Assembly: GCF_002074055.1 (NCBI RefSeq)
Contig: NZ_CP014619.1
Coordinates: 992,001-1,056,000 of the forward strand
Direction of reading: 5' to 3'
From: Frondihabitans sp. 762G35
GTDB taxonomy: Bacteria; Actinomycetota; Actinomycetes; Actinomycetales; Microbacteriaceae
Length of the DNA stretch: 64,000 bases
Shown here: positions 26-63,653 of the stretch, piece by piece
How the letters are laid out: each line of letters starts with the position of its first letter
Position numbering within the stretch: position 1 is the stretch's first letter
Translations under genes and position numbers: made by a program
The notes under the pieces: generated by a model
Told to the model about the DNA's origin: nothing
The model's input: the letters and a program-made list of their open reading frames with translations, nothing else
The model's database searches: none

Positions 26-622
26 TTACCGGCGGGGGACTTCGCCGATCCGGTTATCCACAGGCAGCGCGGCGAGGACGTCCGCGATCGTCGTGATCTC
101 GATCAGCGGCGCGTAGAGGGACAGGGCGTCGAGCGCCCGCTGGTGGTCGAGCGGCGTGAGCCCCGCGCAGGCGTCGGCCACGACTCGGACCCGCACGCCG
201 GCATCCGCCGCGGCGAGCGCGGTCGACAGGATGCAGCAGTCGGTCGAGACTCCCGTGAGGACGATGTCGGTGGGGTGACCCAGGGCATCCTGCGTGCCGT
301 CGTCCCACTTGCCGAAGGTCGTCCGGGTCACGATCGTGGCGTCGCCCGCCGGGATCTCCGCCACCAGGTCGTAGAGCGGATCGTCGGCGGGGACGAGGGC
401 GAACGGCCAGTCGCGGTAGTAGGGGATCCAGGCCCCCGCGGGCTCGGCCGGGGCCACGAAGCGGGTGAGCGCGACCCGGGTGCCGAATGCGGGACGGAGG
501 CGTGCGGCTCCTGCGCTCGCGACCGCGAAATCAGGGGTGAACCATTCGCTGCCGGTGTCGCCGAAGACGTTCTGGAGATCGACGGCGACGAGCCAGGGCG
601 GGGCGTCGAAGGAGAGCGTCAC
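26..622 (-). CDS. isochorismatase-family cysteine hydrolase
   Basis: A 198-residue hydrolase of the isochorismatase/nicotinamidase fold. The expected Asp-Lys-Cys triad is visible: Asp15 in VAVDLQ, Lys105 in TFGKWDDG and Cys130 in STDCCILSTA. The substrate cannot be read from the sequence; relatives act on amides such as nicotinamide or N-carbamoyl compounds. The GTG start at 622 is chosen because it overlaps the stop of the upstream permease gene by four bases (GTGA) and is followed directly by the conserved beta strand. The overlap suggests co-transcription, so a nucleobase breakdown product or other permease substrate is a plausible target (inference). Confidence 0.85.
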   Translation of the reverse strand: MTLSFDAPPWLVAVDLQNVFGDTGSEWFTPDFAVASAGAARLRPAFGTRVALTRFVAPAEPAGAWIPYYRDWPFALVPADDPLYDLVAEIPAGDATIVTRTTFGKWDDGTQDALGHPTDIVLTGVSTDCCILSTALAAADAGVRVRVVADACAGLTPLDHQRALDALSLYAPLIEITTIADVLAALPVDNRIGEVPRR

Positions 623-2103
623 GCGATGTCCCGGTCGAGGAACGCGAGGCCCTCCTGCTGCTGCACGACGGGCCGCATGAACAGGAGCGTGCCCAGGTAG
701 CCGATGACGAGGGCGGCCAGGACGCCGAGGTTGGCGCCGCCCCACTGGGCGCCCAGACCGAACAGCAGGTAGCCCTGCCAGCCCAGCCAGGTGGCGTAGG
801 TGTTCTGGACGAGGCCCCAGCCGACGAACGTCCCGAGGACGATCAGGCCGACGGTCACCCACTGGACGCTGCCGTACCGGCCGCGGGCCGTGAAGAGGTC
901 GGCCGTCGAGTAGTCCTTCCTGCGGAGCTGGACGTCCGCGAGGAAGATCCCGGCCCAGGCGGCGATCGGGACGCCGAGCGTGATCAGGAAGCCCTGGAAC
1001 GGCCCGATGAACGAGGTGGCGAAGAACGCGACGTAGACGGTGCCCGCGATCATCACGACGCCGTCGACGGCGGCCGCCGCATAGCGCGGGATCGGGATCC
1101 CGGCGTTCAACAGGGAGAAGCCGGAGGAGTAGATGTTCAGCACGGAACCGCCCACGAGTCCCAGGACGGCCACGAGGGCGAACGGGATGAGGAACCAGGT
1201 CGGCACGATCGTCGCGAGGGCCCCGATCGGGTCGGCGCCGATCGCGGCGGAGAGGTCTTTCGAGCTGCCCGCGAGGAGGAGTCCGAAGATCAGCAGGATG
1301 ACGGGTGCCAGCGACGACCCGAACGTCGTCCAGAAGACGACGCCCCGGCTCGAGGCCGAGCGGGGGAGGTAGCGCGAGTAGTCGGCCGCCGCGTTCACCC
1401 AGCCCAGGCCGAAGCCGGTCATCATGAAGACGAAGCCGCCGATCACGGCCGGCAGCGACCCCGCCGGAAGGGACGAGACGGCACCGAGGTCGATCCGGTG
1501 GGCGGTCAGGACGATGTAGAACACCGTGAGCACGCCGGTGGCCACGGTGATCCACTTCTGCAGCCGCATGATGAAGTCGAACCCGAGGATCCCGCCGATC
1601 ACGACGAGGACGGCCACCACGACGAGGGCGACGATCTTCGTGAGCACGCCGCCGTGGAAGCCGAGCGTGTCGAAGACGGTCGCGGTCGCGAGCACGGCGA
1701 GCGAGGTGAGCGCCGTCTCCCAGCCGACCGTGAGCACCCAGGAGATGACGGAGGGCAGCTTGTTGCCGTGCACGCCGAAGGCGGCACGGCCGAGAGTCAT
1801 CGTGGGGGCGTTGCCGCGTTTCCCGGCGAGGGCGATGAGGCCGCAGAAGAGGAACGAGACGACGATCCCGAGGACGCCGATCACGACCGCCTGCGCGAAC
1901 GAGACCTGGAACGCCAGGAGATACGCTCCGTAGCCGATCCCGAGGACGGAGACGTTCGCGGCGAACCACGGCCAGAAGAGCTGCCGGGGCGATCCCCGGC
2001 GCTCCGACTCGTCGACGACGTTGACGCCGTTCTGCTCGATACCGGCAGCGGGGACCGCGTCGGGCACGGCGAGGGACCTCTCTGATGGAGCTTCGGTCGT
2101 CAT
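619..2103 (-). CDS. NCS1-family purine-cytosine permease
   Basis: A 494-residue integral membrane protein of the nucleobase:cation symporter-1 family (codB-like). About 12 hydrophobic segments are visible. The family signature region FWPWFAANVSVLGIGYGA comes after a short hydrophilic N-terminus and is followed by GRAAFGVHGNKLPS. It should import a purine, pyrimidine, hydantoin or allantoin-type compound with Na+ or H+ across the cytoplasmic membrane; the exact substrate is not readable. It overlaps the downstream cysteine hydrolase by four bases, so both are probably one operon. Confidence 0.85.
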   Translation of the reverse strand: MTTEAPSERSLAVPDAVPAAGIEQNGVNVVDESERRGSPRQLFWPWFAANVSVLGIGYGAYLLAFQVSFAQAVVIGVLGIVVSFLFCGLIALAGKRGNAPTMTLGRAAFGVHGNKLPSVISWVLTVGWETALTSLAVLATATVFDTLGFHGGVLTKIVALVVVAVLVVIGGILGFDFIMRLQKWITVATGVLTVFYIVLTAHRIDLGAVSSLPAGSLPAVIGGFVFMMTGFGLGWVNAAADYSRYLPRSASSRGVVFWTTFGSSLAPVILLIFGLLLAGSSKDLSAAIGADPIGALATIVPTWFLIPFALVAVLGLVGGSVLNIYSSGFSLLNAGIPIPRYAAAAVDGVVMIAGTVYVAFFATSFIGPFQGFLITLGVPIAAWAGIFLADVQLRRKDYSTADLFTARGRYGSVQWVTVGLIVLGTFVGWGLVQNTYATWLGWQGYLLFGLGAQWGGANLGVLAALVIGYLGTLLFMRPVVQQQEGLAFLDRDIA

Positions 2104-2146
2104 GACATCTCTTCTCGCTCACGGCCGGACGTCGAGCCCCGCGTTC

Positions 2147-2152
2147 TAGGCT
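2147..2152 (+). promoter_or_regulatory. -10 element of leaderless nitroreductase gene
   Basis: TAGGCT lies six bases before the ATG at 2159, so transcription should begin at or next to the start codon. No Shine-Dalgarno sequence is present, which fits a leaderless mRNA. Confidence 0.6.
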
Positions 2153-2158
2153 CAACCT

Positions 2159-2791
2159 ATGACCGATACCGTAGCTTCCGAAACGCCCCCCGTGGCCACC
2201 ACGACCGCCGTCGACTTCTGGTTCGACCCGTCGTGTCCGTGGGCCTGGATGACGAGCCGCTTCGTCGACGAGGTGGCCCTCCACCGCGACCTCGACGTCA
2301 CCTTCCACGTGATGAGCCTCGCGATCCTCAACGAGGACAACGAGGCGATGCAGGATCGCCTGCCGAAGCTCCTCCGCTACACCCGCCTCGTGGCGGCGGC
2401 CGCCGAACTCCACGGCCAGCAGATCGTCAAGCCGCTCTACGACGCCCTGGGGCAGCGGATCCACGTCGAGGCCATCGACGACCAGGACGCAGTCATCGCA
2501 GGAGCCGTGGCCGAGGTCGGCCTTCCCGACGACTTCGCCCGGTACGCCGACAGCGACGAGTACGACGCCCAGCTCCGCGCCAGCCACAAGGACGGCATCG
2601 ACCGGGTCGGGCAGGATGTGGGCACCCCCGTCATCGCCGTGAACGGCACGGCCTTCTTCGGCCCCGTCATCTCGCCCGCGCCCAAGGGCGAGGTCGCGCT
2701 CACCCTCTGGGACGGCGTCGTCGCCGCCGCCTCCTACGACGGTTTCTTCGAGCTGAAGCGCTCGCGGACCCGCGGCCCGGACTTCAGCTAG
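2159..2791 (+). CDS. DsbA-family mycothiol-dependent nitroreductase-like protein
   Basis: A 210-residue thioredoxin-fold protein of the DsbA/FrnE type that resembles the mycobacterial mycothiol-dependent nitroreductase Rv2466c. The active-site region reads DPSCPWAW (Cys26-Pro-Trp-Ala29), so the second cysteine of the usual CPWC motif is replaced by alanine. The cis-proline loop is probably VGTPVIAVNG. With one cysteine the protein may act as a mixed-disulfide enzyme with mycothiol (inference). The next genes, rpiB and nei, are in the same order as in Mycobacterium tuberculosis Rv2466c-Rv2464c, which supports the assignment. Confidence 0.8.
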   Translation: MTDTVASETPPVATTTAVDFWFDPSCPWAWMTSRFVDEVALHRDLDVTFHVMSLAILNEDNEAMQDRLPKLLRYTRLVAAAAELHGQQIVKPLYDALGQRIHVEAIDDQDAVIAGAVAEVGLPDDFARYADSDEYDAQLRASHKDGIDRVGQDVGTPVIAVNGTAFFGPVISPAPKGEVALTLWDGVVAAASYDGFFELKRSRTRGPDFS

Positions 2792-2841
2792 CCCGCTCGC
2801 AGCGAGGTCGGTGGCCGCCGGACGCCGTCGGTGGTCGTCAA

Positions 2842-2847
2842 TAGAAT
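2842..2847 (+). promoter_or_regulatory. -10 element deciding the rpiB start
   Basis: TAGAAT is followed by seven bases and then the ATG at 2855. The same spacing occurs before several other genes here, so rpiB is probably leaderless and starts at 2855. The ATG at 2846 overlaps the -10 element itself. Confidence 0.6.
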
Positions 2848-2854
2848 GACGACC

Positions 2855-3340
2855 ATGCGCATCCACGTGGCCACCGACCATGCTGGGCTGGAGTTCGCCC
2901 AGACCCTCATCAGGCATCTCGAGGAGCAGGGGCACGAGGTGACCGACCACGGTCCCGCGACCTACGAGCCGCTCGACGACTACCCCTCCTTCTGCATCGC
3001 CGCGGCGCGGGCGGTCGTCCGCGATCAGAGCGAGGGCCTCGAGAGCCTCGGGGTCGTGTTCGGCGGGTCCGGCAACGGCGAGCAGATCGCGGCCAACAAG
3101 GTCGAGGGCGTCCGGGCCGCACTCGCCTGGAACACCTCCACCGCGCAGCTCGCCCGGCAACACAACGACGCCAACGTGGTCGCCATCGGCGCCCGCCAGC
3201 ACACCGAGCAGGAGGCCATCGCGCTCATCGACGAGTTCGTGAAGACGCCGTTCTCCTTCGAGGAGCGACACGAGCGCCGCATCGCCCAGCTGGCGGAGTA
3301 CGAGGAGACCGGCGCGATCCAGGGCCACCCGGTCGACTGA
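2855..3340 (+). CDS. rpiB: ribose-5-phosphate isomerase B
   Basis: A 161-residue RpiB (LacA/RpiB family), interconverting ribose 5-phosphate and ribulose 5-phosphate in the pentose phosphate pathway. The N-terminus MRIHVATDHAG and the phosphate/active-site loop FGGSGNGEQIAANKV are typical. The loop has Gly-Glu (Glu76) where many RpiB proteins have a catalytic Cys; this is the actinobacterial form known from M. tuberculosis. The start at 2855 is set by the -10 box. The stop codon overlaps the ATG of nei by one base, so the two are translationally coupled. Confidence 0.9.
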   Translation: MRIHVATDHAGLEFAQTLIRHLEEQGHEVTDHGPATYEPLDDYPSFCIAAARAVVRDQSEGLESLGVVFGGSGNGEQIAANKVEGVRAALAWNTSTAQLARQHNDANVVAIGARQHTEQEAIALIDEFVKTPFSFEERHERRIAQLAEYEETGAIQGHPVD

Positions 3341-4356
3341 TGCCCGAAGGTCATTCCGTCCACCGCATCGCCAACCAGTTCGCGGCGAGTTTCGTCGGCG
3401 ACACCGTGGCCGTCTCCTCGCCGCAGGGTCGCTTCGCCGATGGCGCGACGCGCATCGACGGCGCCCGCATGGTCGACGCCAAAGCCGTCGGCAAGCAGAT
3501 GTTCCTCGAGTTCGACAACGGCCTCTTCCTCCATGTCCACCTCGGCCTCTACGGCTCGTGGGATTTCGCGGGCGACTTCTCGCTCGACCCCACCACGAAG
3601 AGCTCCAAGGGTCGGATGGGGCAGACCAATCAGCGAGGCACGGTCGTCGACGAGGCGGGCGAGGACAGCTGGACGAGCATCGGTGCTCCCCGCCGGTCGC
3701 GGCTCGTCCGCGTCGGCAAGCCGCTCTCGGCCGCGCGCATGCGCATGGCCGAGCAGGAGAAGCAGGAGGACGACGTCGACCTCGAGGGTTTCCCGCCGGA
3801 GCCCGTCGGCGCCGTCCGGGTCCGCCTCCTCGCCGAGACCGTCGTCGCCGACCTGCGGGGGCCGACGAAGTGCGAGGTCCTCGACGCCGCCGAGGTCGAT
3901 GCCGCCATCGCGAAGCTGGGCCCCGACCCTCTCGTCGACTCGCCCAAGAAGGGCTCCGATCGGTTCTTCGAACGCGTGCACAAGACCCGCACCGCCATCG
4001 GTCTCCTCCTCATGGATCAGTCGGTCGTGAGCGGGATCGGCAACGTCTACCGGGCCGAGATGCTCTTCCGAGCCCGTCTCAACCCCCACACCCCGGGCAA
4101 GGACGTCCCCGAGGAGACGGTCCGCGCTCTCTGGAAGGATTGGACGAAGCTCCTGCGGAGCGGAGTCGAGCTCGGTCAGATGATGACGATGGACGGCCTG
4201 TCCAAGGCCGACTACCGGAAGGCGCTCGCCCGACGCGACGACCGTCACTGGGTCTATCACCGCGAAGGGCTGCCGTGCCGGGTCTGCGGCACGCACATCA
4301 CGATGGAGGAGGCGGCCGGCCGCAAGCTCTACTGGTGTCCGGTCTGCCAGGCTTGA
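3340..4356 (+). CDS. nei: Fpg/Nei-family DNA glycosylase
   Basis: A 338-residue bifunctional base-excision repair glycosylase/AP lyase for oxidised bases. The processed N-terminus MPEGHSVHR supplies the catalytic Pro2 and Glu3. The helix-two-turn-helix region SVVSGIGNVYRAE sits near two-thirds of the length. A C-terminal C-x2-C-x16-C-x2-C zinc finger begins at CRVCG and ends at WCPVC. The MPEGHS start, rather than MPELPE, and the position next to rpiB match mycobacterial Nei1 (Rv2464c). An insertion around residues 85-140 is rich in charged residues. Start overlaps the rpiB stop by one base. Confidence 0.88.
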   Translation: MPEGHSVHRIANQFAASFVGDTVAVSSPQGRFADGATRIDGARMVDAKAVGKQMFLEFDNGLFLHVHLGLYGSWDFAGDFSLDPTTKSSKGRMGQTNQRGTVVDEAGEDSWTSIGAPRRSRLVRVGKPLSAARMRMAEQEKQEDDVDLEGFPPEPVGAVRVRLLAETVVADLRGPTKCEVLDAAEVDAAIAKLGPDPLVDSPKKGSDRFFERVHKTRTAIGLLLMDQSVVSGIGNVYRAEMLFRARLNPHTPGKDVPEETVRALWKDWTKLLRSGVELGQMMTMDGLSKADYRKALARRDDRHWVYHREGLPCRVCGTHITMEEAAGRKLYWCPVCQA

Positions 4357-4360
4357 CGAC

Positions 4361-4996
4361 ATGCGCCGCACCCCGCACTTCCTGCTCGAGGACACCCTCG
4401 AGGTCAAGCGCCTGATCCGCGAGAACCCGTGGGCGACGCTGGTGTCGCACACCGCCCACGGTCTGGTCGCGTCGCACTACCCGATCGTGCTGGAAGAGAC
4501 CGCCGACGACGAGATCAGCATCGTCAGCCACGTCGGCCGCCCCGACGAGACGTCGCACGAGCTGGGCCGGCACGAGCTGCTCGTGATCGTGCAGGGCCCC
4601 CACGGCTACGTGTCACCGGCGTGGTACCCCGCCGATCAGATCATCCCGACGTGGAACCACGTGACGGCCCATCTCTACGGCACCCCCGAGATCCTCTCCG
4701 ACGACGAGAACTTCCGGGTCCTCACCGACCTGGTCGATCACTTCGAGCGCCGCATGCCCGAGCCGGTCTCCCTCGCCCTCGACGAGGAGGGGTCCCGTCG
4801 GGTGGCGCGCGGGACCGTGGGCATCCGCCTGCGCGTGACCCGGTTCGACGCGCGGCTCAAGCTGAGTCAGAACAAGGCTCCCGAGGTGGCCGAGCGGATC
4901 ATCGGCGCCCTCGAGGGGGACGGCCCCTACGCGCATCCTGCTCTCGCCGACGAGATGCGTCGAGTCCACCGGCCGACCGACGAAGGCACCGCGTGA
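4361..4996 (+). CDS. PaiB-family FMN-binding protein
   Basis: A 211-residue protein of the PaiB/FMN-binding split-barrel family. The start MRRTPHFLLED, the segment PHGYVSPAWYP and the segment TWNHVTAHLYG are conserved family blocks. PaiB proteins were named as repressors of sporulation genes in Bacillus, but in actinobacteria the role is unknown; an FMN-dependent oxidoreductase role is equally possible. Four bases separate it from nei, and its stop overlaps the next GTG start by four bases, so rpiB-nei-paiB-amidohydrolase are probably one transcript. Confidence 0.78.
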   Translation: MRRTPHFLLEDTLEVKRLIRENPWATLVSHTAHGLVASHYPIVLEETADDEISIVSHVGRPDETSHELGRHELLVIVQGPHGYVSPAWYPADQIIPTWNHVTAHLYGTPEILSDDENFRVLTDLVDHFERRMPEPVSLALDEEGSRRVARGTVGIRLRVTRFDARLKLSQNKAPEVAERIIGALEGDGPYAHPALADEMRRVHRPTDEGTA

Positions 4997-6465
4997 GCAC
5001 GCTGTTCCGACGCGCCCGCCTCGTCGGGCGCGACGACACCCCGGTCGACGTCCTCGTCGAGGACGACGTCGTCTCGGCGATCGCCCCGTCGATCGCGGCG
5101 GGCTCCGCCGAGGTGGTCGAGGCGGACGGCCGCTATCTCGCCCCCGGCCTCTGGGACAACCACGTCCACATGACCCAGTGGGCCCTCGACCGCCAGCGGC
5201 TCGACGTGTCGCAGGCGACCAGCGCGCAGGAGGCGGCCGACACGGTGGGAGCGCGCCTCCGGCGAGGCCTCGCGGGCGACCGCGACCTGCTCGTGGCCTC
5301 GGGATTCCGCGACGCGCTGTGGCCCGACGAGCCGACGTCCGGTCTCCTCGACGCGGTGAGCGGGCCCGTGCCCGTGGCCGTGGTGAGCGCCGATCTCCAC
5401 TCCGTGTGGCTCAACAGCGCGGCGCTCGCTCGCGGCGGTCTGGCCGGACATCCGACCGGTCTCCTGCGCGAAGCCGAGGCCTTCGACGCGACGGCCGCGG
5501 TCACCAGGGTCGACGACGGCGGCATGGACGCCCTGATCGCCGACGCCGCGACCGCGGCGGCCGCCCGAGGGGTCGTCGGCATCGTCGACCTCGAGATGAC
5601 GCTCGGGCTCGACGCCTGGGTGCGTCGCGTCGGGTCCGGCGTCGACTCCCTCCGCGTCCGCGCCGGCGTCTACCCCGACCGGCTCGACGAGGTGATCGCG
5701 CGACGCCTGCGGACCGGCGACCCCGTCCCCGGCGGGGAAGGGCTCGTGACCATGGGGCCGTTCAAGGTCATCACCGACGGCTCGCTCGGCACGCGCACCG
5801 CCTACTGCCACGACCCCTATCCGGGTTCCGCGGGGGAGCCGGAAGCGTTCGGGCTCAGCACCTACGACGTCGACTCCCTGACGGCGCTGCTCGTCCGCGC
5901 CTCGGCGGCCGGCCTCGTGCCCGCCGTCCACGCCATCGGCGACCACGCTCTCGACGACGCCCTCACCGCCTTCGAGAGGGCAGGATGCCCGGGCAGCATC
6001 GAGCACGCCCAGCTGATCACCCCCGCCGCCCTGCCCCGGTTCGCCCGGCTCGGTCTCGTCGCGAGCGTCCAGCCGGAGCACGCCATGGACGACCGAGACA
6101 TCGCCGACCACTTCTGGGCGGGCCGGACGGAGCGCGCGTTCGCTCTCCTCGACCTGCACGCCGCCGGGGTCCCGCTCCGGCTCGGCTCCGACGCCCCCGT
6201 CGCGCCGCTCGACCCGTGGGTGTCGCTGGCCGCGGCACTGTCCAGGTCGCGCGACGGTCGCGAGCCCTGGCACCCGGAGCAGCGGCTCCCCGCCGCGGTC
6301 GGGCTCGCGGCCTCGACGGACGGCCGCCTCGCGGTCACGGAGGGCGACGTCGCCGATCTCGTGCTCGTCGAGCGCGACCCGCTGACGGCGACGGGCGACG
6401 AGCTCCGCGAGTTCGCCGTCTCCGCGACGATGCTCGGCGGGCGCTTCACCTTCCGGCAGCCCTGA
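4993..6465 (+). CDS. amidohydrolase family 3 (YtcJ-like)
   Basis: A 490-residue metal-dependent hydrolase of the amidohydrolase superfamily. The metal-binding HxH is in LWDNHVHMTQ near residue 57; later ligands are visible as VHAIGDHALDDAL and in LRLGSDAPVAPLDPW. The C-terminal small beta domain ends with ADLVLVERDPL. YtcJ-like enzymes hydrolyse cyclic or N-acyl amide bonds; the substrate is not predictable here. GTG start 4993 is chosen for the four-base overlap with the upstream gene. Confidence 0.82.
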   Translation: MSTLFRRARLVGRDDTPVDVLVEDDVVSAIAPSIAAGSAEVVEADGRYLAPGLWDNHVHMTQWALDRQRLDVSQATSAQEAADTVGARLRRGLAGDRDLLVASGFRDALWPDEPTSGLLDAVSGPVPVAVVSADLHSVWLNSAALARGGLAGHPTGLLREAEAFDATAAVTRVDDGGMDALIADAATAAAARGVVGIVDLEMTLGLDAWVRRVGSGVDSLRVRAGVYPDRLDEVIARRLRTGDPVPGGEGLVTMGPFKVITDGSLGTRTAYCHDPYPGSAGEPEAFGLSTYDVDSLTALLVRASAAGLVPAVHAIGDHALDDALTAFERAGCPGSIEHAQLITPAALPRFARLGLVASVQPEHAMDDRDIADHFWAGRTERAFALLDLHAAGVPLRLGSDAPVAPLDPWVSLAAALSRSRDGREPWHPEQRLPAAVGLAASTDGRLAVTEGDVADLVLVERDPLTATGDELREFAVSATMLGGRFTFRQP

Positions 6466-6625
6466 TCCGTCTCGCTCCGCGCGCTGCGCTCCGCTCCGCG
6501 TACTCGCACGTGTGCTGTCACGTTTCGTGCACGATGTGCCGTTGAGACGCGACATCGCGCACCAGACGTGACATCGGGCTGCGCGCGGGCGCAGGCGCGG
6601 GCATAGGCGCAGGCGGAGTCGAGGC

Positions 6626-7372
6626 TCAGCCGGCGACGGGCGTGGCGACCGAACGCAGGATGGCCGAGCGGAACTCGCGACCGACCGCGGCGTAGCCCCG
6701 GGTCGTCGGGTGGATGCCGTCGAGCGTCGTGCCCGCTGCGTAGCGACCGCCGGAGCCGCGGGCGAAGCCCCAGGGGTCGACGAACTCCCACTTCTTGGCC
6801 GCCGCGTAGCTCTTGAGCTGCTTCTCGTAGGCGGCAGCACCGGCCGGGTTGCGGTCGTAGGGAGGGATCGCACCGACGATGACGTGCTTCGGCTCGAGCG
6901 TCGCCACGATGGCGTCGTAGTAGGGGGCGGCCTGCGCGAACGAGTAGTGGAGCCGTACATCGTTCGTCCCGGCCATCAGCACGAGCACGTCGACGGGGCC
7001 CGCAGGATGCACGTGCTGGGACATGATCTGCACGGTCGTGCCGCCCTTGGCCCACCCGCCGACCCACTTCACGCCGTGGCCCTGCGCGTACGTCATCCAG
7101 GTGTTGCGGTCGAGGCCCATCTCCGGGATGGTTCGACGCCCTCCGGCGGTCAGCGAGTCTCCGACGATGGCCACGCGGACGGGATCCTCCTCGGTGCCGA
7201 GGGGCGCCGTCTCGGGGGCGGAGGAACCGGGCGCGGGGGAGGCGGACGGCGGGGCGACGGTGGCCGTCGATCCTGCTTCGGGGAGGGAGGAGGGGGTGGT
7301 GGAGCAGCCGGCGACCGCGACGAGCACCGCGGCCGCGAGGGCGCCGACGAGAGCTCGGGAGACGGTTCGCAT
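6626..7372 (-). CDS. SGNH/GDSL-family secreted lipoprotein
   Basis: A 248-residue exported hydrolase. The signal peptide ends in a lipobox, VAGC with Cys23, followed by a Ser/Pro/Ala-rich linker to about residue 60. The catalytic blocks are GDSLTAGG (Ser73), a Gly block near WAKGGTT, GTNDVRL and DGIHPTTRGYA (Asp and His). It should be an esterase or acetylhydrolase anchored on the outer face of the membrane; cell-wall polysaccharide deacylation is possible but not shown. It is transcribed divergently from the LtrA gene, about 100 bases away. Confidence 0.83.
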   Translation of the reverse strand: MRTVSRALVGALAAAVLVAVAGCSTTPSSLPEAGSTATVAPPSASPAPGSSAPETAPLGTEEDPVRVAIVGDSLTAGGRRTIPEMGLDRNTWMTYAQGHGVKWVGGWAKGGTTVQIMSQHVHPAGPVDVLVLMAGTNDVRLHYSFAQAAPYYDAIVATLEPKHVIVGAIPPYDRNPAGAAAYEKQLKSYAAAKKWEFVDPWGFARGSGGRYAAGTTLDGIHPTTRGYAAVGREFRSAILRSVATPVAG

Positions 7373-56590: not shown

Positions 56591-56974
56591 GTGACAGCCA
56601 CCCCCGAATCCATCGAGCTGGTCCAGCTCGCCGCGCGTGCCGCCGACTCGAAGCAGGCCGACGACCTCGTCGCCCTCGACGTCAGCGAGCCCCTCGCCCT
56701 CACCGACATCTTCCTCCTCGCCTCCGGTCGAAACGAGCGCAACGTCGTCGCGATCGCCGGCGAGATCGAAGACAAGATGATCGAGGCCGGCGTCAAGCCG
56801 CTGCGTCGGGAGGGTCGCGCCGAGGGGCGCTGGATCCTGCTCGACTTCGGCGACATCGTCGTGCACGTCTTCCACGACGAGGACCGCCAGTTCTACTCGC
56901 TCGAGCGCCTCTGGAGCGACTGCCCCGCGATCGCCCTCGACCTCGAGACGACGTCGCAGGCCGCCGAGGCCTGA
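56591..56974 (+). CDS. rsfS: ribosomal silencing factor RsfS
   Basis: A 127-residue RsfS/Iojap protein that binds L14 and blocks subunit joining in starvation. The segments DIFLLASGRNERNV, EGRAEGRWILLDFGDIVVHVF and RQFYSLERLW are conserved. The GTG at 56591 has AAAGGA five bases upstream. nadD-rsfS proximity is common in bacteria. Confidence 0.93.
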   Translation: MTATPESIELVQLAARAADSKQADDLVALDVSEPLALTDIFLLASGRNERNVVAIAGEIEDKMIEAGVKPLRREGRAEGRWILLDFGDIVVHVFHDEDRQFYSLERLWSDCPAIALDLETTSQAAEA

Positions 56975-57115
56975 GCACGGGCATCCTGCCGCGCGGTGCC
57001 GCTTTCTGCGGTCCGCGCGGCTTTGCTGTGCGCGCAGCAATTCAGGGTGCTCCTCGGGGCGTCTGGTGCAGTGGAGGGCAGAGCGCCCCGCCCGACGGGT
57101 GCCCGAGGAGGACCC

Positions 57116-57646
57116 GTGAAGTGCCCCATCGACAACCAGACCCTCGTCATCAGCGAGCGCGGCGGCATCGAGATCGACTATTGCCCGGACTGCCGTGGCG
57201 TGTGGCTCGACCGCGGTGAGCTCGACAAGATCATCGATCGGGCCGGTCCCGGTCCCGGTTCGGGGTCGGGGTCGGGGTCGTCGTCGGCGTCGTCCGCGTC
57301 GTCCGGCTCGTTCGCGTCCGGCTCGTTCCCGGGGTCGGCGGGCTCGGTGGCCGTCGGCGGGCAGGCGCCGCACGAGGTGCGGCAGGCGCAGTACGAGCGC
57401 GATCAGCTCGAATGGCATTGGCAGGAGCAGGAACGGCTCCGGGCGGGCGCCCGCGGCCGGGACGATCGGGGCGGGTACGACGACCGAGGTCCAGGCGACC
57501 AGCGAGGCGGCGATCGGGGCTTCGACGACCAGCGGGGCTACGGTGACCAGCGGGGCTACGGTGACCAGCGGGGCTACGGCGACCGAGGTGGCTACGGCCA
57601 GCGTCGCAAGAAGAAGGACAACTGGCTCAGCGAGCTCTTCGACTGA
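57116..57646 (+). CDS. TFIIB-type zinc-ribbon protein with glycine-rich repeats
   Basis: A 176-residue protein. The N-terminal zinc ribbon is CPIDNQTLVI to YCPDCRGVWLDRGEL (C-x2-type pairs), followed by a Ser/Gly-rich spacer, a helix QAQYERDQLEWHWQEQERL and a tail with several GYGDQR-type repeats, ending in a basic-acidic NWLSELFD. Zinc-ribbon proteins of this type (zf-TFIIB domain) have no known role in bacteria. GTG 57116 follows GAGGAGGA. Confidence 0.8.
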   Translation: MKCPIDNQTLVISERGGIEIDYCPDCRGVWLDRGELDKIIDRAGPGPGSGSGSGSSSASSASSGSFASGSFPGSAGSVAVGGQAPHEVRQAQYERDQLEWHWQEQERLRAGARGRDDRGGYDDRGPGDQRGGDRGFDDQRGYGDQRGYGDQRGYGDRGGYGQRRKKKDNWLSELFD

Positions 57647-57730
57647 CGCGGTCCGCGGTGGCGGGTGGTCTTGCGTCGCTCGAAAGTGTAGTAATCTTGA
57701 CAAGTTGCTTCTTCGGGAGCAGCGAAGTCT

Positions 57731-57803
57731 GGGTCTGTGGCGCAGCTGGTAGCGCACCTGCATGGCATGCAGGGGGTCAGGGGTTCGAGTCCCCTCAGAT
57801 CCA
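57731..57803 (+). tRNA. tRNA-Ala (anticodon GGC)
   Basis: A 73-base cloverleaf: acceptor GGGTCTG with CAGATCC, D arm GCGC/GCGC, anticodon stem CCTGC/GCAGG around ATGGCAT (GGC), T arm AGGGG-TTCGAGT-CCCCT, discriminator A. CCA is not encoded (next bases are CCC). Confidence 0.95.
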
Positions 57804-57814
57804 CCCTCACGAAG

Positions 57815-57840
57815 AAGCCCCGCCTCGAGCGGGGCTTTTC
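57815..57840 (+). terminator. terminator of tRNA-Ala
   Basis: AAGCCCCGC and GCGGGGCTT flank a five-base loop and are followed by TTC; a T-rich tail is present. Confidence 0.88.
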
Positions 57841-57972
57841 CGTTCCCTCGGCAGCGTCGGGCCGGCCCGCCCCTGAACCATCGGGCTCGGTCCGGTCCGC
57901 CGCGGCCCGTGCCTCCTGCCCCCGCGCCGGTGCCGGCGCTCCGGCGCCGCGGCCCCGTCGCCCTGTCGGCGG

Positions 57973-58204
57973 GAGACTCCACGTTTTGCGGGTTCTGGGG
58001 AAACTGAGCGGCGTGTCGTGGAGTCTCGCGGAGTGAGCCGGCGGTGTCGGATGGCGGCACCGGGCGGGAGACTCCACGTTTTGCGGGTTCTGGGGAAACT
58101 GAGCGGCGTGTAGTGGAGTCTCGCGGGGCGGGGTGCGGCGGCGTCGGTCGGGCGACTCCACGACTTGCGGGTTCTGGGGAAAGTGAGCGGCGAGTCGTGG
58201 AGTC
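57973..58204. repeat. three GACTCCACG palindromic repeats (type II loop)
   Basis: Copies at 57973-58027, 58068-58122 and 58154-58204. The arms are GAGACTCCACG and CGTGGAGTCTC, slightly changed in copies 2 and 3. The loops share TTGCGGGTTCTGGGGAAA, different from the type I loop but alike in length and in a TGAGNGGCG segment. They fill the gap 57841-58267 between the tRNA-Ala terminator and the VOC gene; no gene is seen there. Confidence 0.85.
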
Positions 58205-58267
58205 TCACCGGGCGGGCGGGCGGGCGGGCGGCCGGACGCGGCGGGCGCGCAGGGCGCAGCGCAGCGC

Positions 58268-58711
58268 TCAGGCGTCGCGCGGGGCGGCGAGCTCGAGGTT
58301 GATGTCGTCGGGGTCCTGGAGCGAGAGGACCACGAGGCCGAACGCCGGGAGATCCAGGACGTCGCCGTGCGTGATCCCGGCCTCGGTGAGGCGTGCGGCC
58401 GCGGCGCGGATCTCCGCGGGGGAGTCGACGCGGAGGCTCAGGTGGTCGAGGCCGACGCGGTCCGGGTCGAACCGGTCGCCGGGCTTCGCCACCGGCCGGA
58501 GCCCCAGCGTCTGCCCGCCGAACGTGAACGAGCACCCGCCGTAGGTGCGGTCGGGGTCGTCGTGGATCGTCGGGTCGTCGATCTGGTCGCTGAAGTCGCT
58601 GCCGGGCGGCATGCCGAAGAGGCGCTCGTAGAACGCCTTGCTCCGGTGGATGTCGGTGACGGTCAGACGGACGTGCGCGAACCCGCGCGGGGTGACGAGA
58701 GCGGAAGCCAT
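58268..58711 (-). CDS. VOC/glyoxalase-family protein
   Basis: A 147-residue vicinal-oxygen-chelate protein with two beta-alpha-beta units, HVRLTVTDIHRSKAFYERLFG at the start and LDHLSLRVDSPAEI in the middle. Metal ligands are probably His13, Glu near the end (NLELA) and His of LDHLS. Substrate unknown; relatives include glyoxalase I and fosfomycin-resistance proteins. ATG 58711. Confidence 0.82.
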   Translation of the reverse strand: MASALVTPRGFAHVRLTVTDIHRSKAFYERLFGMPPGSDFSDQIDDPTIHDDPDRTYGGCSFTFGGQTLGLRPVAKPGDRFDPDRVGLDHLSLRVDSPAEIRAAAARLTEAGITHGDVLDLPAFGLVVLSLQDPDDINLELAAPRDA

Positions 58712-58777
58712 GCTCCGAGTCAACGCCGTCCGCGCGGGCCCGTCCCGCCGCCGCTCTCGTCGGACCGCAGGATCCGC

Positions 58778-59812
58778 TCAGCCGACGATCGCCGGAACGC
58801 GCGCGTACTCGAAGACCAGGCGCGCCGGGATGCTCCCCGACAGGACCTCCGCGATGGCCTCGTTGACGTCCTCGAGCTGACGCGTCTCCGCGATGACGCG
58901 CGTCTTGCCCGCGGCGTGGAGGGCGAACACCTCGGCGAGATCCTGCCGGGTCCCGACGATCGACCCGAGGATCGAGATCCCCTTGATGACCGTGTCGAAG
59001 ATCGGGATGCTCATCGTCCCCTCGGCGGGGAGCGCCACGCAGACGAGTCGTCCGCCGCGGCGCAGCGACGCGAACGCCTGCTCCAAGACCCGGGGCGACG
59101 CTGCCAGGACGACCGCCACGTCGAGCCCGCCGAGCGCCTGGATCGCCTCGACCGGGTTCACCGTGGCCGCGTCGACGACGTGCTCGGCTCCGAGCTCCTT
59201 CGCCAGGTCGAGCTTCGGCTGCTCGATGTCGACGGCGACGACGGTGCCGCCCATGATCCGGGCGTATTGGACGGCCAGGTGACCGAGCCCGCCGATTCCG
59301 AAGATGCCGACGTGCTCGGTCGGCTGCACCTTCGCCACCTTCAGGGCCTTGTAGGTGGTGAGGCCCGCGCAGGAGAGGGGCGCGGCGTCGAGCGAGGAGA
59401 TGCCGTCGGGCACGGCGACGACGTACTTGGCGCTCGCGACGGCGTACTCCGCGAAGGCGCCGTCGATCGAGTAGCCGCTGTTCTCCTGCTTCTCGCAGAG
59501 CGTCTCCCGGCCGTCGATGCAGTAGCGGCACTCGCCGCAGGCCTCGCCCAGCCACGGGATCGCGACGCGGTCGCCGACCGAGCGGTCCGTGACTCCTGCG
59601 CCCAGCTTCTCGACGATGCCGATGCCCTCGTGTCCGGGGACGATCGGCAGCGGGGGCTTGACGGGCCAGTCGCCGCCGGCGGCGTGGATGTCGGTGTGGC
59701 AGAGGCCGCACGTCTCCAGGCGGACGAGGACCTGGCCCGGGCCGGGATCGGGGACAGGACGCTCGACGATCTCAAGGGGTGCACTGAACGAGGTGACGAC
59801 GGCTGCCTTCAT
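58778..59812 (-). CDS. zinc-dependent alcohol dehydrogenase
   Basis: A 344-residue medium-chain dehydrogenase. Catalytic zinc ligands: CGLCHTD and GHEGIG. Structural zinc: four cysteines in GEACGECRYCIDGRETLC. NAD-binding loop GIGGLGHLAVQ followed by the acidic DIEQ, which favours NAD over NADP. It resembles ethanol-preferring AdhP/AdhT enzymes. ATG 59812. Confidence 0.9.
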   Translation of the reverse strand: MKAAVVTSFSAPLEIVERPVPDPGPGQVLVRLETCGLCHTDIHAAGGDWPVKPPLPIVPGHEGIGIVEKLGAGVTDRSVGDRVAIPWLGEACGECRYCIDGRETLCEKQENSGYSIDGAFAEYAVASAKYVVAVPDGISSLDAAPLSCAGLTTYKALKVAKVQPTEHVGIFGIGGLGHLAVQYARIMGGTVVAVDIEQPKLDLAKELGAEHVVDAATVNPVEAIQALGGLDVAVVLAASPRVLEQAFASLRRGGRLVCVALPAEGTMSIPIFDTVIKGISILGSIVGTRQDLAEVFALHAAGKTRVIAETRQLEDVNEAIAEVLSGSIPARLVFEYARVPAIVG

Positions 59813-59930
59813 GGGGGACCCTTTCGACGAAGCCGCCCCGGCGCCCGGCTCGGACGAGCGGGCGGTGCGGGGTGTCCTTCGATGACACGCTCGCAGGATG
59901 CGCGGGGGCGCGGCAGGGCCGAACGTCCCC

Positions 59931-60176
59931 GGGACTCCACGACACGCTGCTCATGTTCCGGCGGGCGCGGCGTGTCGCCGTGGGCTCCCGACGGAGCGGC
60001 CCGCAGGATCCCCGGGGCGACGTCGGCGCGCCCGCGAGACTCCACGATGCGGCGTTTACCCCGAACGTGAGCAGCGTGTCGTGGAGTCTCGCGGAGGGGC
60101 GTGCGGCGGCCCCGCGCCGAGACTCCACGACGCGCCGCTCGTGTCCCGGGGGGCGCGGCGTGTCGTGGAGTCTCGG
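59931..60176. repeat. three GACTCCACG palindromic repeats (type III, longer arms)
   Basis: Copies at 59931-59989, 60034-60092 and 60117-60176. The last has the longest arms, CCGAGACTCCACGACGCGCC and its complement, with one mismatch. They occupy the gap 59813-60177 between the adh start and the LytR-type gene; the last copy ends one base before the lytR stop codon. No gene is seen in the gap. Confidence 0.85.
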
Positions 60177-60177
60177 G

Positions 60178-61608
60178 TCAGTTGAGGCAGGGCACGCCGG
60201 CGGCCGGCGCCGCGGCAGCGGCCGGCGCGGAGGCGCCCGACGCGGCACCACCGGACGAGCCAGCACCCGCACCAGCGGACGCCTTCGTCGTCGCCACCAC
60301 ACCGTCCGTCCCGAGCACGAGCGTCACGCTCGCGACGCCCGTCACCGCCTCGAGGGTCGCCCCCGGCACGTACTTCGCGAGCGTCGACGCCTGCGACCCC
60401 ATCGACGCGGGGTACTGGATCGTCGTGCCCGAGCGCGTGCTGACGGTGCCCGGGGTGCCGACCGCGAAGCCGACCTTCTCGAGCGTCGAGGAGTTCGTCG
60501 CCGCGGCCCCGCTCTGCCCGCTCCCGTTGAGCACGGTGACCTTCACCGACGACGGCGCGACGGCCGCGGGAGCGGCCGGAGCCGCACTCGACCCCGACGA
60601 GGTCGCCTTCTGGTCGAGCTTGGCCACGAAGGCCGGCATGGCCTCCTCGTCGACCTTGACGATGGAGACCGCCGAGCCGTCGTAGTAGATCGTCGGGGTC
60701 CCGGAGATCGGGATGGTGGCCGACTGGAGGTTGCCCCCCGCGAGGTCCTTGAGCTGCGTCGCGAGGCCGAGGAAGTCGAGCCCGGGATCGGTCTGGATCG
60801 CCCCGCTCACGGCGGTCAGGAGACCGTTCAGCTTGCCCGGGTTCAGGAGCGTCGACGGGGAGAGGACGTTCTTCATCTCGGCGCTGAGGAAGTAGCGCTG
60901 GCGAGCCTCGCGGTCGAGGTCGCCGCCCGGGAGCCCGTGCCGTTGGCGCACGAACGCGAGCGTCTGCATGGCATCGAGCGTCGACTCGCCCTTCGGGGCG
61001 ACGAACGTCGAGTAGGGGTCGTCCACAGCGTCGTTCAGGCACACGCGGAGCGGGTCGAGGGCCTTGGCGACGTCGTAGAAGCCGAGCATCGAGATGCGGA
61101 CGAAGTGGTCGATGTGCAGCCCCGAGACGTTCTCGACGGTCTTCACGAGAAGCTGCGCGCCTCCGGCGTCTCCGCCCGAGGCGGACCCGTAGGCGAACGC
61201 CGCGTTGAGCTTGCCCATCCCGTGGCCGGGGATCGAGACCCAGGAGTCGCGGGGCAGCGAGACGAGCGTCGCCTTCGCGCCGTTCGAAGGGATGTGCAGC
61301 ACCATCATCGAGTCGGTGTTCGTCCCGCCGCCGTCGGCCGTCGTGCCGAGTTCCGCGAGCTCCTGCGCCGACGCGTTCGCCGGCCGGTGGTCGTCGCCGA
61401 CGAGCAGGATGTTCTGGCCCGAGGACGAGGACGCCGCGGACGACGCCGCGGGGATGGCGTCGATGTGCGTGATGCCGCCGACGAAGTGCTGGTAGTTGTA
61501 CACGGCGTAGGCGACGGTCGCGGCCAGGACGAGGACGACCACGACGGCGATCCAGCGGACGACGTGGCGGGGGCGGACGCGGAGGCGCGAGCGGGGCGTG
61601 TCGGACAT
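60178..61608 (-). CDS. LytR-CpsA-Psr family cell-wall glycopolymer ligase
   Basis: A 476-residue membrane-anchored enzyme that attaches polysaccharides or teichoic-like polymers to peptidoglycan. One helix (about 18-40) follows a basic start. The LCP domain has TDSMMVLHI, SLPRDSWV (active-site arginine) and the RQRHGLPGGDLDREARQR block. A C-terminal LytR_C domain (around VTVLNGSGQSGAA) ends with an Ala-rich tail and a final PCLN. ATG 61608. It is divergent from the MFS gene. Confidence 0.9.
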   Translation of the reverse strand: MSDTPRSRLRVRPRHVVRWIAVVVVLVLAATVAYAVYNYQHFVGGITHIDAIPAASSAASSSSGQNILLVGDDHRPANASAQELAELGTTADGGGTNTDSMMVLHIPSNGAKATLVSLPRDSWVSIPGHGMGKLNAAFAYGSASGGDAGGAQLLVKTVENVSGLHIDHFVRISMLGFYDVAKALDPLRVCLNDAVDDPYSTFVAPKGESTLDAMQTLAFVRQRHGLPGGDLDREARQRYFLSAEMKNVLSPSTLLNPGKLNGLLTAVSGAIQTDPGLDFLGLATQLKDLAGGNLQSATIPISGTPTIYYDGSAVSIVKVDEEAMPAFVAKLDQKATSSGSSAAPAAPAAVAPSSVKVTVLNGSGQSGAAATNSSTLEKVGFAVGTPGTVSTRSGTTIQYPASMGSQASTLAKYVPGATLEAVTGVASVTLVLGTDGVVATTKASAGAGAGSSGGAASGASAPAAAAAPAAGVPCLN

Positions 61609-61705
61609 TCCGCAACCTCACCATCGAAAACAGGGATGGACCCGCACGTTACCTGACAGCGCCCCCGCCGACGAGGCCGCCGCACCGGGGTCCATACTGG
61701 TCAGG

Positions 61706-63130
61706 ATGCTCCGTCCAGCCCGCCGTCGCGCCGAGACGCCCGCCCTCGCCCTCCTCGTCGCCGGCTGTTTCTTCATGGAGAACCTCGACTCCACGATCGT
61801 CACGACGGCCGTGCCGAGCATCGCCCGCGACCTGGCGGTGACGCCCGCGTCGGTGGGGATCACGATCACGGCGTACGTCATGACGGTCGCGGTGCTCATC
61901 CCCGTGAGCGGGTGGCTGGCCGACCGGTTCGGGAGCCGCCGGATCCTGCTGGTCGCCATCGCCCTGTTCACGCTCGCGTCGATCGCGTGCGCGCTCAGCC
62001 CGACCCTGCCGGTGCTCGTCGCGGCCCGCATCCTGCAGGGTGTCGGCGGCGCGATGATGGTGCCCGTCGGGCGCATGACGGTGCTCCGGGTGACCCGCAA
62101 GGAGGACGTCATCCGAGCCGTCGCCCTCCTCACCTGGCCCGCGCTCGTGGCCCCGATCCTGGCGCCGTTCCTCGGGGGGCTGATCACGACGTCGGCGTCC
62201 TGGCACTGGATCTTCCTCCTCAACGTGCCGCTCGGGATCGTCGGGTTCGCCGTGGCGCTGCGCGTCGTCCCGGCCCCGGGGGCGTCCGCCGACGCCGAGC
62301 ACGTCCCGACGCCGCCCGACTGGGTGGGCCTGTCGCTGACCTCCGCGGGCATCGCCTCGCTCGTCTGGGCGACGACCCTGCTGACGATGCCGCCGATCGA
62401 CGTCGGTCAGACGGTCGCCTTCGGTGTCGCGGGGCTGATCCTGCTGTCCGTCGCCGTCGGGTACCTGCTGCGGGCCGAGCGCCCCTTCGTGGACCTGCGG
62501 CTGCTTTGGATCGAAACGTACGGGACGGCCCTCGGCGGCGGGGGCCTCTACCGGTTCGTGATCAGCGCCATCCCGTTCGTCCTGCCCCTGCTCTTCCAGG
62601 GCGCCTTCGGCTGGACCCCCGTCGAGGCGGGCAGCGCCGTCCTGTTCCTCTTCGCGGGCAACCTGGCGATCAAGCCGACCACGACCCCGCTGCTCCGGCG
62701 CTTCGGCTTCCGTCGCCTCCTCGTCGCGTCGCACCTCCTCGGCGTCGCGTGCCTCGCCGCGATGGCGTTCTTCCGGCCCGAGACGCCGTTCGGGCTGATG
62801 GTCGCCGTGCTCGTCGTCTCCGGTGCGGCGAGGTCGGTCGGATTCACGGCCTACAACACCATCACCTACGCCGATGTGGAGCCGCGCGACATGACGGGCG
62901 CGAACGTGCTCGACTCGACGGTGCAGCAGATCGCGATCGGCAGCGGCATCGCGCTCGGCGCCGTCGCGATCTCGGCGGGGCTCGCGCTGACCTCCGGGGC
63001 CGGCGCCGCCCCCGTGCTGGCCTACGACTTCGCTTTCGCGGTGATCGCGGTCGTCCTGCTCGCCGCCCTCGTGCCGGCCTGGCGTCTGGCGCCGACCGCC
63101 GGCGACTCGCTCACGCGCTCGCGCGGCTGA
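61706..63130 (+). CDS. DHA2-family MFS drug exporter (EmrB/QacA-like)
   Basis: A 474-residue transporter with 13-14 helices. Motif NLDSTIVTTAVPSIARDL in helix 1, the GWLADRFGSRRIL loop, and the motif C-like LVAPILAPFLGG are typical. It probably extrudes a cationic or amphipathic compound. The ATG at 61706 lies seven bases after a CATACT -10 box, which makes it leaderless; longer in-frame versions would run into the lytR promoter. Confidence 0.87.
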   Translation: MLRPARRRAETPALALLVAGCFFMENLDSTIVTTAVPSIARDLAVTPASVGITITAYVMTVAVLIPVSGWLADRFGSRRILLVAIALFTLASIACALSPTLPVLVAARILQGVGGAMMVPVGRMTVLRVTRKEDVIRAVALLTWPALVAPILAPFLGGLITTSASWHWIFLLNVPLGIVGFAVALRVVPAPGASADAEHVPTPPDWVGLSLTSAGIASLVWATTLLTMPPIDVGQTVAFGVAGLILLSVAVGYLLRAERPFVDLRLLWIETYGTALGGGGLYRFVISAIPFVLPLLFQGAFGWTPVEAGSAVLFLFAGNLAIKPTTTPLLRRFGFRRLLVASHLLGVACLAAMAFFRPETPFGLMVAVLVVSGAARSVGFTAYNTITYADVEPRDMTGANVLDSTVQQIAIGSGIALGAVAISAGLALTSGAGAAPVLAYDFAFAVIAVVLLAALVPAWRLAPTAGDSLTRSRG

Positions 63131-63155
63131 CCGCAGGATCCCCGGCCGTCGCCGC

Positions 63156-63653
63156 TCAGGTGATCGTGACCCCGGCCGCCGTCAGCACCAGCTCCACGTC
63201 CGAGACGATCTCGGCCAGCGGGCGCGAGCCGCCGTGCGTGGCGTGAAGGGCGGACGGCACCTGGACCGCGAAGCCCGCGTCGTGCGCCGCGATGCTCGAC
63301 TCCTGGACGCAGGACTCGGAGCGCATCCCGACGACGACGATCGTCGCCACTCCGGAGGCGGCGAGCTCGGCCGCGAGCGCGGGGTTCGACTCGAAGACGT
63401 CGACCGTGGTCTTGCGGACGACCCAGTCGTCCTCCTCCGGCTCGAAGAAGAGCTCCCACCCCGGCGTGCGGGGTTCGTCGAGGTCCCCGGGGGCGCCGTC
63501 GTGCTGCACGAAGACGACGAGGCGGCCGTTCGTCCGGGCGACCTCGAGGGCCGTGCCGAGGCGCGTGACCATGATCGCGGCGGTGGGGAGGGCATCCTGC
63601 CCCTCGAGGAAGTGGCGCTGAGCGTCGAGCACCATCAGAGCGGTGTCGGGCAT
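63156..63653 (-). CDS. isochorismatase-family cysteine hydrolase
   Basis: A 165-residue hydrolase. Triad: Asp10 in MVLDAQ, Lys in VVRKTTVDVFE and Cys in MRSESCVQESS. It is shorter than the protein at 26-622 and only loosely related to it. Substrate unknown. ATG 63653. Confidence 0.82.
   Translation of the reverse strand: MPDTALMVLDAQRHFLEGQDALPTAAIMVTRLGTALEVARTNGRLVVFVQHDGAPGDLDEPRTPGWELFFEPEEDDWVVRKTTVDVFESNPALAAELAASGVATIVVVGMRSESCVQESSIAAHDAGFAVQVPSALHATHGGSRPLAEIVSDVELVLTAAGVTIT

Follow-up and report, generated by a model that had tools for sequence, protein, structure and literature searches.

What keeps a single nine-base word, GCAGGATGC, at high density in the chromosome of Frondihabitans sp. 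762G35? The question arises from a stretch of 64,000 nt of this chromosome (NZ_CP014619.1, positions 992,001 to 1,056,000; hereafter the window), in which the exact word occurs 26 times counting both strands. We consider GCAGGATGC to be, probably, this species' dialect of a self tag that resembles a DNA uptake sequence (DUS) and is widespread in the Microbacteriaceae, as judged from the patterns in the genomes compared here. The observed basis for this reading is an excess beyond codon use, the structure of the motif, its dialects, the confinement of the family word to the family within the order, the absence of polarity, its scarcity in low-GC DNA and in five phages, and the presence of com and pilus genes.

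Abundance beyond composition and codon use

A first-pass annotation of the window had reported 26 copies of GCAGGATGC; all are present, with one start corrected (36688 instead of 36687). Dinucleotide shuffles of the window (n = 100) gave a mean of 0.41 copies and a maximum of 4. The whole chromosome, a single contig of 3,409,251 bp, carries 903 copies (433 forward and 470 reverse), as compared to 23 (14 + 9) for the control, GCAGGATGC read backwards. Further own-genome tests used 1.264 Mb of the chromosome, made up of 60 stretches of 20 kb and the window (hereafter the sample). The 334 copies in the sample stand against expectations of 11.8, 15.5, 27.3, 38.8 and 123.4 under Markov models of order 1 to 5. 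The annotation had proposed a count against orders 6 and 7, with a result within a few-fold of expectation speaking against its claim; read literally, the expectations of 223.7 and 289.0 do fall within a few-fold of 334, whereas the low-order expectations are far exceeded. We give the order 6 and 7 result no weight because such models, fitted to the same sequence, contain the 7-mers and 8-mers of the word itself. The copies in the window, all of them exact matches, are:

285..293, minus strand, GCAGGATGC site
4933..4941, minus strand, GCAGGATGC site
5980..5988, plus strand, GCAGGATGC site
7002..7010, plus strand, GCAGGATGC site
10220..10228, minus strand, GCAGGATGC site
11880..11900, hairpin 1, 3' of tig: GCAGGATGC at 11880-11888 (plus) and 11892-11900 (minus), 3-base loop
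11919..11939, hairpin 2, 3' of tig: GCAGGATGC at 11919-11927 (plus) and 11931-11939 (minus), 3-base loop
13463..13471, plus strand, GCAGGATGC site
15002..15010, minus strand, GCAGGATGC site
18000..18008, minus strand, GCAGGATGC site
24988..24996, minus strand, GCAGGATGC site
29032..29040, plus strand, GCAGGATGC site
34111..34119, plus strand, GCAGGATGC site
36688..36696, plus strand, GCAGGATGC site
36751..36759, plus strand, GCAGGATGC site
41194..41202, minus strand, GCAGGATGC site
42519..42527, minus strand, GCAGGATGC site
44063..44071, plus strand, GCAGGATGC site
48788..48796, minus strand, GCAGGATGC site
52272..52280, minus strand, GCAGGATGC site
56981..56989, minus strand, GCAGGATGC site
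59893..59901, plus strand, GCAGGATGC site
62028..62036, minus strand, GCAGGATGC site
63592..63600, minus strand, GCAGGATGC site

Codon use was controlled by 40 rounds of synonymous-codon shuffling, gene by gene, in the 1,135 genes of the sample called with a home-made codon-score caller. Genic GCAGGATGC copies number 260, as compared to 37.6 expected. The excess is clear in five of the six reading frames: AGC (10 observed versus 0.1 shuffled), RM (22 versus 1.2), QD (60 versus 4.7), IL (117 versus 30.9) and HP (49 versus 0.6); in the sixth, ASC (2 versus 0.2), the count equals the largest of the 40 shuffles. The HP and QD frames are in excess even though they force rare codons, and only the IL frame (ATC CTG) has a sizeable background in the shuffles. 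Outside genes lie 69 of the 334 copies, and 5 more are partly genic. The view of the annotation that the word is read in different frames and that codon use does not explain it is therefore borne out, and the excess is not limited to one frame. An artefact of codon pairs or composition in high-GC coding sequence could draw on the IL frame, which is frequent in high-GC actinobacteria and there yields a GCAGGATGC background of tens per Mb. Against it stand the codon shuffle, the intergenic copies and the absence of the family word described below from sister-family genomes, and its probability is negligible; codon usage and codon pairs are largely rejected as the cause by the shuffling.

The annotation had also described related words as frequent. 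Among 10,036 9-mers (at least 20 genic copies and in excess) the strongest three are GCAGGAGCC, GCAGGATGC and GCAGGATCC; of the 25 top 9-mers listed, most overlap one of these. Both sister words are enriched in the genes of the sample by codon shuffling (GCAGGAGCC 281 versus 38.6, GCAGGATCC 174 versus 21.3), so the earlier remark describes a real feature. The three words have a flank in common, with C at position 11 (0.82, 0.70 and 0.51) and G at position 12 (0.65, 0.59 and 0.57). GCAGGATGCCCG occurs 105 times in the sample as compared to 2.2 expected at Markov order 4, and the fourth combination, GCAGGAGGC, is enriched only 2.0-fold by codon shuffling. GCAGGATGC appears to be one form of a motif of about GCAGGA(TG/GC/TC)CNCG. 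The sister words are placed in the window as follows:

506..55943, GCAGGAGCC, 19 copies starting at 506-, 2498+, 15587+, 24029+, 24672+, 27135-, 30714+, 32150-, 34535-, 38838-, 43110+, 44423-, 47613+, 47624-, 48743+, 52499+, 53599-, 55227- and 55935+ (dinucleotide-shuffle mean 1.23)
17707..63141, GCAGGATCC, 13 copies starting at 17707+, 21662+, 22959-, 28873-, 33213-, 34515+, 36859-, 39923+, 56832-, 58767+, 60003+, 61941- and 63133+ (dinucleotide-shuffle mean 0.83)

The neighbouring word GGAGGATGC is strongly avoided in own-genome genes (6 versus 61.1 by codon shuffling in the sample), probably because it mimics a Shine-Dalgarno sequence or ribosome-binding site plus start.

Dialects in the genus, the family and the order

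A codon-type null was applied to 100-200 kb of each of six congeners. In all six the top 9-mer is a GGA-containing relative of GCAGGATGC, and five distinct words are represented (observed versus expected):

G006, CGCAGGATC, 91 versus 6.7
G004, GAAGGATCC, 14 versus 0.2
G003, CGCAGGAAC, 19 versus 2.3
G001, GCAGGATCC, 24 versus 2.2
G005, CGCAGGATC, 18 versus 1.6
G002, GGCAGGATC, 23 versus 1.4

In whole genomes, where G000 denotes Frondihabitans sp. 762G35 itself, CGCAGGATC occurs 1,749 times in G006, 1,156 in G001, 1,109 in G005, 782 in G002, 467 in G004, 392 in G000 and 344 in G003; the control counts are 2-12. The counts of GCAGGATGC are 903 in G000, 717 in G002, 483 in G006, 278 in G005, 241 in G001, 108 in G003 and 63 in G004. 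Our genome and its six congeners share 76-81% identity where they align; of 97 aligned sites 7 are identical, a share below the 15-23% of random windows. The excess was therefore built up within lineages, and this turnover fits a rapid gain or drive coupled to a changing recogniser.

The dialects bear on the idea of a restriction-modification or methylation mark. Highly iterated words linked to methylases do exist: HIP1 of cyanobacteria is, like GCAGGATGC, a highly iterated chromosomal word, and its function is debated. HIP1 is palindromic, however, whereas GCAGGATGC is directional and varies within a genus; the dialect core is only about GGA, and restriction sites are normally avoided rather than enriched. 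A mark of this type is highly unlikely.

Among named ClpX relatives the nearest come from Amnibacterium, Labedella, Cryobacterium, Agromyces and Microbacterium, which points to the Microbacteriaceae as the family. Across the family the word to follow is CGGATGCCG. Of 249 Microbacteriaceae genomes, 110 carry it at five times the control or more, 77 have at least 200 copies per Mb and 11 have 600-771 per Mb. Density is highest in G121 (3.8 Mb), with 2,929 copies and a control of 109; the highest total is 3,084 (G161, control 162). Six genomes of our genus are among the 249 and have ratios of 1.1-1.9, as expected for a differing dialect. The order set comprises 297 genomes, 23 from the Microbacteriaceae and 274 from sister families; none of the 274 reaches a ratio of 5 (highest 4.31, median 1.43). 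Within the order, CGGATGCCG is confined to the Microbacteriaceae. Genome-wide over-representation beyond composition and codon use, as in DUS and uptake signal sequences (USS), is thus found for GCAGGATGC and CGGATGCCG. The annotation had called for a search for enrichment in sister genomes, and what this returned is related but different words in the congeners and CGGATGCCG across much of the family. The raw GCAGGATGC count is misleading as a family marker, since many members use CGGATGCCG and high-GC genomes contribute background.

Shorter pieces of sequence were also counted. Two 50-kb pieces of Microbacterium sp. NIBRBAC000506063 hold 44 and 36 copies of CGGATGCCG. In loci of about 16-21 kb there are 13 and 11 copies in two other Microbacterium, 10 in Agromyces, 6 in Cryobacterium, 4 in Amnibacterium, 0 in Labedella, 0 in a Microbacteriaceae metagenome-assembled genome and 0-3 in eleven other actinobacteria. 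The entry NZ_CP072877.1 (L269, L276) is filed as a Microbacterium plasmid, yet it carries tig, clpP, dnaG, rplU, uvrC and leuA and looks like a chromosome fragment.

Ten further genomes were sampled at 80 kb each, eight from the family and two (G025 and G035) from other families. Words containing GGATGCC lead in G007, G011, G012 and G014, although in G012 a codon-pair word is slightly higher at nine bases. Only general codon-pair words were found in the 80-kb samples of G025 and G035. Dialects with a common core, a property of DUS and USS, are thus present, with three of the eight family genomes in this set lacking a strong word. The common core is about GGA, and the word CACCGATR of G015 is without it. 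This genome (L230-L233; 1.43 Mb, GC 0.52) has a modest CACCGATR excess, with CACCGAT at 64 versus 17.6; perhaps this is another dialect.

Orientation, spacing and foreign DNA

The best split of the chromosome into two arcs places 0.60 of the GCAGGATGC sites on the majority strand, as compared to 0.61 with permuted signs, and stretch-level strand bias was not significant in any of six relatives (lowest p 0.07, G012). The annotation was right that both orientations occur, and its question of strand symmetry is answered by 433 forward and 470 reverse copies with no replichore polarity. The strong orientation bias on replichores that marks FtsK-orienting polar sequences (KOPS), architecture-imparting sequences (AIMS) and Chi is lacking.

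This result bears on two explanations. The word could be a Chi-like recombination hotspot, recognised by RecBCD, AddAB or AdnAB in the repair of double-strand breaks. Like Chi sites and KOPS, it is iterated genome-wide at about one per few kb, which is the right order of density for E. coli Chi, and self-protection would be one reading of its being scarce in phages and low-GC stretches. Chi and KOPS are strand-polar, however, and GCAGGATGC is not; several dialects in one genus would be unexpected for a conserved enzyme, and we regard a Chi-like role as unlikely. It could also be the binding site of a protein that organises or segregates the chromosome, such as a nucleoid protein, an SMC loader or a reader of KOPS-like or AIMS-like sites. 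The chromosome-wide spread and the scarcity in phages and low-GC stretches are in line with such a site, but KOPS and AIMS are strand-polar and the dialects change fast within the genus, which makes it improbable. The annotation had spoken of an uptake or architecture signal. The architecture half is weakened because there is no strand polarity, while the uptake half fits, in the conditional form given below.

Even spacing, which the annotation had suggested as a check, was not seen: the variance-to-mean ratio per 20 kb is 1.55 for GCAGGATGC and 2.02 for the three words. Neighbours of the three words at 9-59 bp are inverted in 22 of 26 cases (p 0.0005, gene context uncontrolled). The inverted share is 41/59 at 60-199 bp, 181/322 at 200-999 bp and 208/367 at 1-5 kb, and there are three additional self-overlapping palindromes among the sample neighbours. 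Inverted pairs, often terminators, are common in Neisseria DUS and do not define them. Inverted pairs after a gene had been claimed for the window; for GCAGGATGC this holds at the tig locus only, where both tight hairpins of the window lie (11880-11939), and close pairs are not in excess (29 pairs under 60 bp in the sample versus 33.8 expected). Terminator hairpins are therefore not supported as a general reason for the word, since close pairs occur at random frequency. GCAGGAGCC has an intragenic inverted pair with a 2-base loop at 47613-47632. Between tig and clpP, the region 11862-11950 with its two perfect tandem GCAGGATGC hairpins folds at -67.7 kcal/mol (z -7.05), perhaps as a terminator or RNA stabiliser.

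The excess of the motif varies with base composition. Across 252 bins of 5 kb, the ratio of motif to permuted words is 1.9 at GC 0.60-0.64, then 5.5, 9.8 and, at GC of at least 0.72, 12.8. The word density of 20-kb stretches has a Spearman correlation of 0.66 with GC and none with codon typicality (-0.04). Two low-GC, codon-atypical stretches (L043 and L089) are nearly free of the motif, the three words together having 4 sites in 40 kb. Ten of their proteins were scanned, and the matches are glycoside hydrolases, a histidine kinase, a glycosyltransferase, a hydrolase and two transporter families; these stretches are presumably acquired DNA. Four Microbacterium chromosome pieces (137,051 bp) contain 104 copies of CGGATGCCG, where 500 permuted words average 5.1. 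In five Microbacterium phages (211,476 bp, GC 0.66-0.70) there are 9 as compared to 6.7, with the qualification that the dialects of their own hosts may differ, and a Clavibacter phage (GC 0.57) has no CGGATGCCG in 50 kb. The scarcity in acquired DNA and phages that is typical of DUS and USS is thus seen here, with the acquired status presumed and the phages searched with the Microbacterium word only.

A mutational or repair drive, in which a modification or patch-repair system turns near-miss words into GCAGGATGC, would account for the depletion of the neighbour GGAGGATGC. That word, however, is probably avoided in genes for its resemblance to a Shine-Dalgarno sequence plus start, and the 26 single-base neighbours of GCAGGATGC (excluding GCAGGATCC) total 596 versus 476, with no general depletion. 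The family word is not in excess in the five Microbacterium phages, and a specificity of 9-12 bases would be unusual for such enzymes. We consider this drive very improbable.

Competence genes, known uptake systems and a second repeat

The annotation had advised looking for com genes, and these were found along with a type IV pilus cluster. ComEA (SLBB and HhH domains) adjoins ComEC (Competence and metallo-beta-lactamase domains). The pilus cluster encodes a PilB-like ATPase, PilT, PilC, pilins, PilD and PilM; among the pilins are two prepilins with the methylation motif over the cut-off, in addition to further pilin-like proteins. The two short proteins after PilM are presumably PilN and PilO, judging from sequence and position, and on the same basis rpoB-rpoC would lie just upstream. 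A weaker ATPase match at about 2.19 Mb has small pilin-like neighbours and looks like a tad locus. ComEC was found in 38 of 40 genomes. In the motif-rich congener G002 the ComEC match falls into two abutting pieces (C1:2981383-2982173), perhaps through a frameshift or an assembly error.

The dialects, the strand symmetry, the scarcity in low-GC DNA and phages, the inverted neighbours and the com and pilus genes fit an uptake signal, and tagged DNA would, we infer, be taken up preferentially. In the mechanism we propose, a DNA receptor at the surface or envelope, belonging to the competence machinery (ComEA/ComEC), would prefer double-stranded DNA with the tag, and a type IV or Tad/Flp pilus would supply ComEA/ComEC. 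Tagged fragments of dead kin would be taken up and recombined more often, such that tagged alleles would displace untagged ones in either orientation and any reading frame. As the preference of the receptor drifts the tag would drift along with it, giving rise to dialects.

PilT is found in 123 of the 249 family genomes. Genomes smaller than 2.4 Mb (54) were dropped from the pilus comparison, which left 195. The median CGGATGCCG ratio is 7.6 in PilT-positive (n = 117) and 3.5 in PilT-negative genomes (n = 78; p 0.003). Twenty-seven PilT-positive genomes have a ratio below 3, six of these being members of our genus with another dialect. A strong pilus-type ATPase was found in 4 of 37 chosen genomes, a set that took in all of the 22 exceptions described next; the four are three of those 22 and G111, which was already PilT-positive.

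Several observations weigh against an uptake tag. At the genus level the association between pilus and motif is weak (p = 0.04), and 22 of the 78 PilT-negative genomes have a ratio of at least 8. PilT is present in G025, outside the family, where the 80-kb sample shows no such word. Dividing by the count of the reversed word is an imperfect gauge: in G022 the result is 8.5, with no excess by codon shuffling (3 versus 3.8), and 80-kb samples of G018, G019 and G022, all within the family, contain no strong word. Close neighbours are no commoner than random, and site conservation gives no sign of old conserved sites or of selection on single sites. We know of sequence-specific uptake in a few Gram-negative groups only, and in the literature we found no uptake experiment on the word. 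With so many motif-rich PilT-negative genomes, the motif seems able to do without a type IV pilus; as a strict requirement this pilus is not supported, and a weak association stays. Given the loose link, our guess is that ComEA, ComEC or a Tad component may serve as the receptor.

The pattern has several traits in common with DUS, namely the number of copies, indifference to reading frame, symmetry of the strands, dialects across the family and the contrast between self and non-self; in inverted neighbours the match is partial. Like the DUS of Neisseriaceae, GCAGGATGC is a short non-palindromic word with hundreds to thousands of copies, both genic and intergenic. The host, in contrast, is a monoderm actinobacterium, the sequence is another one, close pairs in the Microbacteriaceae occur at random frequency, and the motif is also found where a type IV pilus was not detected. 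Neisseria meningitidis 8013 carries 1,474 DUS, whose enhancing effect requires the minor pilin ComP (PMC3868556). DUS dialects in the Neisseriaceae track the core-genome tree and have a common CTG core (PMC3630211); family-wide dialects with a short common core are a likeness to the Microbacteriaceae, as are, in part, frequent inverted neighbours.

The USS of Pasteurellaceae, for which the receptor is called unknown in PMC12616744, are likewise iterated chromosomal words. A bias of uptake for self DNA is a feature of USS and would be one in the Microbacteriaceae. USS have AT-rich flanking tracts where an NCG tail is found here, and belong to a different phylum. Micrococcus luteus, likewise an actinobacterium with ComEA and ComEC, has a Flp/Tad-pilus competence, and a tad-like ATPase locus is present in our genome too. 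Transformation in M. luteus needs Flp pili (PMC4322843, PMC6370729), and a term search of PMC4322843 and PMC12849477 gave no match for an uptake word. For Actinobacteria/Actinomycetota or Microbacteriaceae, no uptake word was found in the open-licence literature, as judged largely by titles and the starts of abstracts. The string GCAGGATGC occurs within primers in PMC13136126, and CGGATGCCG within a probe in PMC12089995, a Clavibacter review.

A bolder claim, which we put forward tentatively and hold to be somewhat doubtful, is that uptake of self DNA by a sequence code, not known before from a monoderm phylum, operates in the Microbacteriaceae. Its fast-evolving dialects would keep species from recombining with one another, and its receptor would be something other than a type IV minor pilin, given that many relatives lack that pilus and still have the tag. 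An uptake tag of the kind proposed here would be the first in actinobacteria to our knowledge, and a family-wide tag with dialects in high-GC Gram-positives would show that the trait arose more than once. Such a tag would give many natural pairs of dialect and receptor from which to derive a recognition code, would predict the partners of DNA exchange within the Microbacteriaceae, and would offer a practical handle for their transformation in the laboratory. Two freshwater members, Rhodoluna lacicola and Aurantimicrobium photophilum, are naturally transformable (PMC11577799), which makes the tag directly testable; the text of PMC11577799 gave no match for "uptake sequence".

A second enriched word, GAGACTCCAC, occurs 13 times in the window. 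It makes up the two inverted ends of an intergenic palindrome that is dispersed and about 55 bp long. The palindromes are often in tandem, about 80-110 bp apart. In the sample, 89 of the 90 GAGACTCCAC copies are intergenic and 58 of the 90 lie between convergent genes. The element looks like one of the repetitive extragenic palindromic (REP) or miniature inverted-repeat transposable element (MITE) type. Its stretches in the window are:

21010-21102, GAGACTCCAC palindrome stretch
28343-28397, GAGACTCCAC palindrome stretch
57973-58206, GAGACTCCAC palindrome stretch
60036-60174, GAGACTCCAC palindrome stretch

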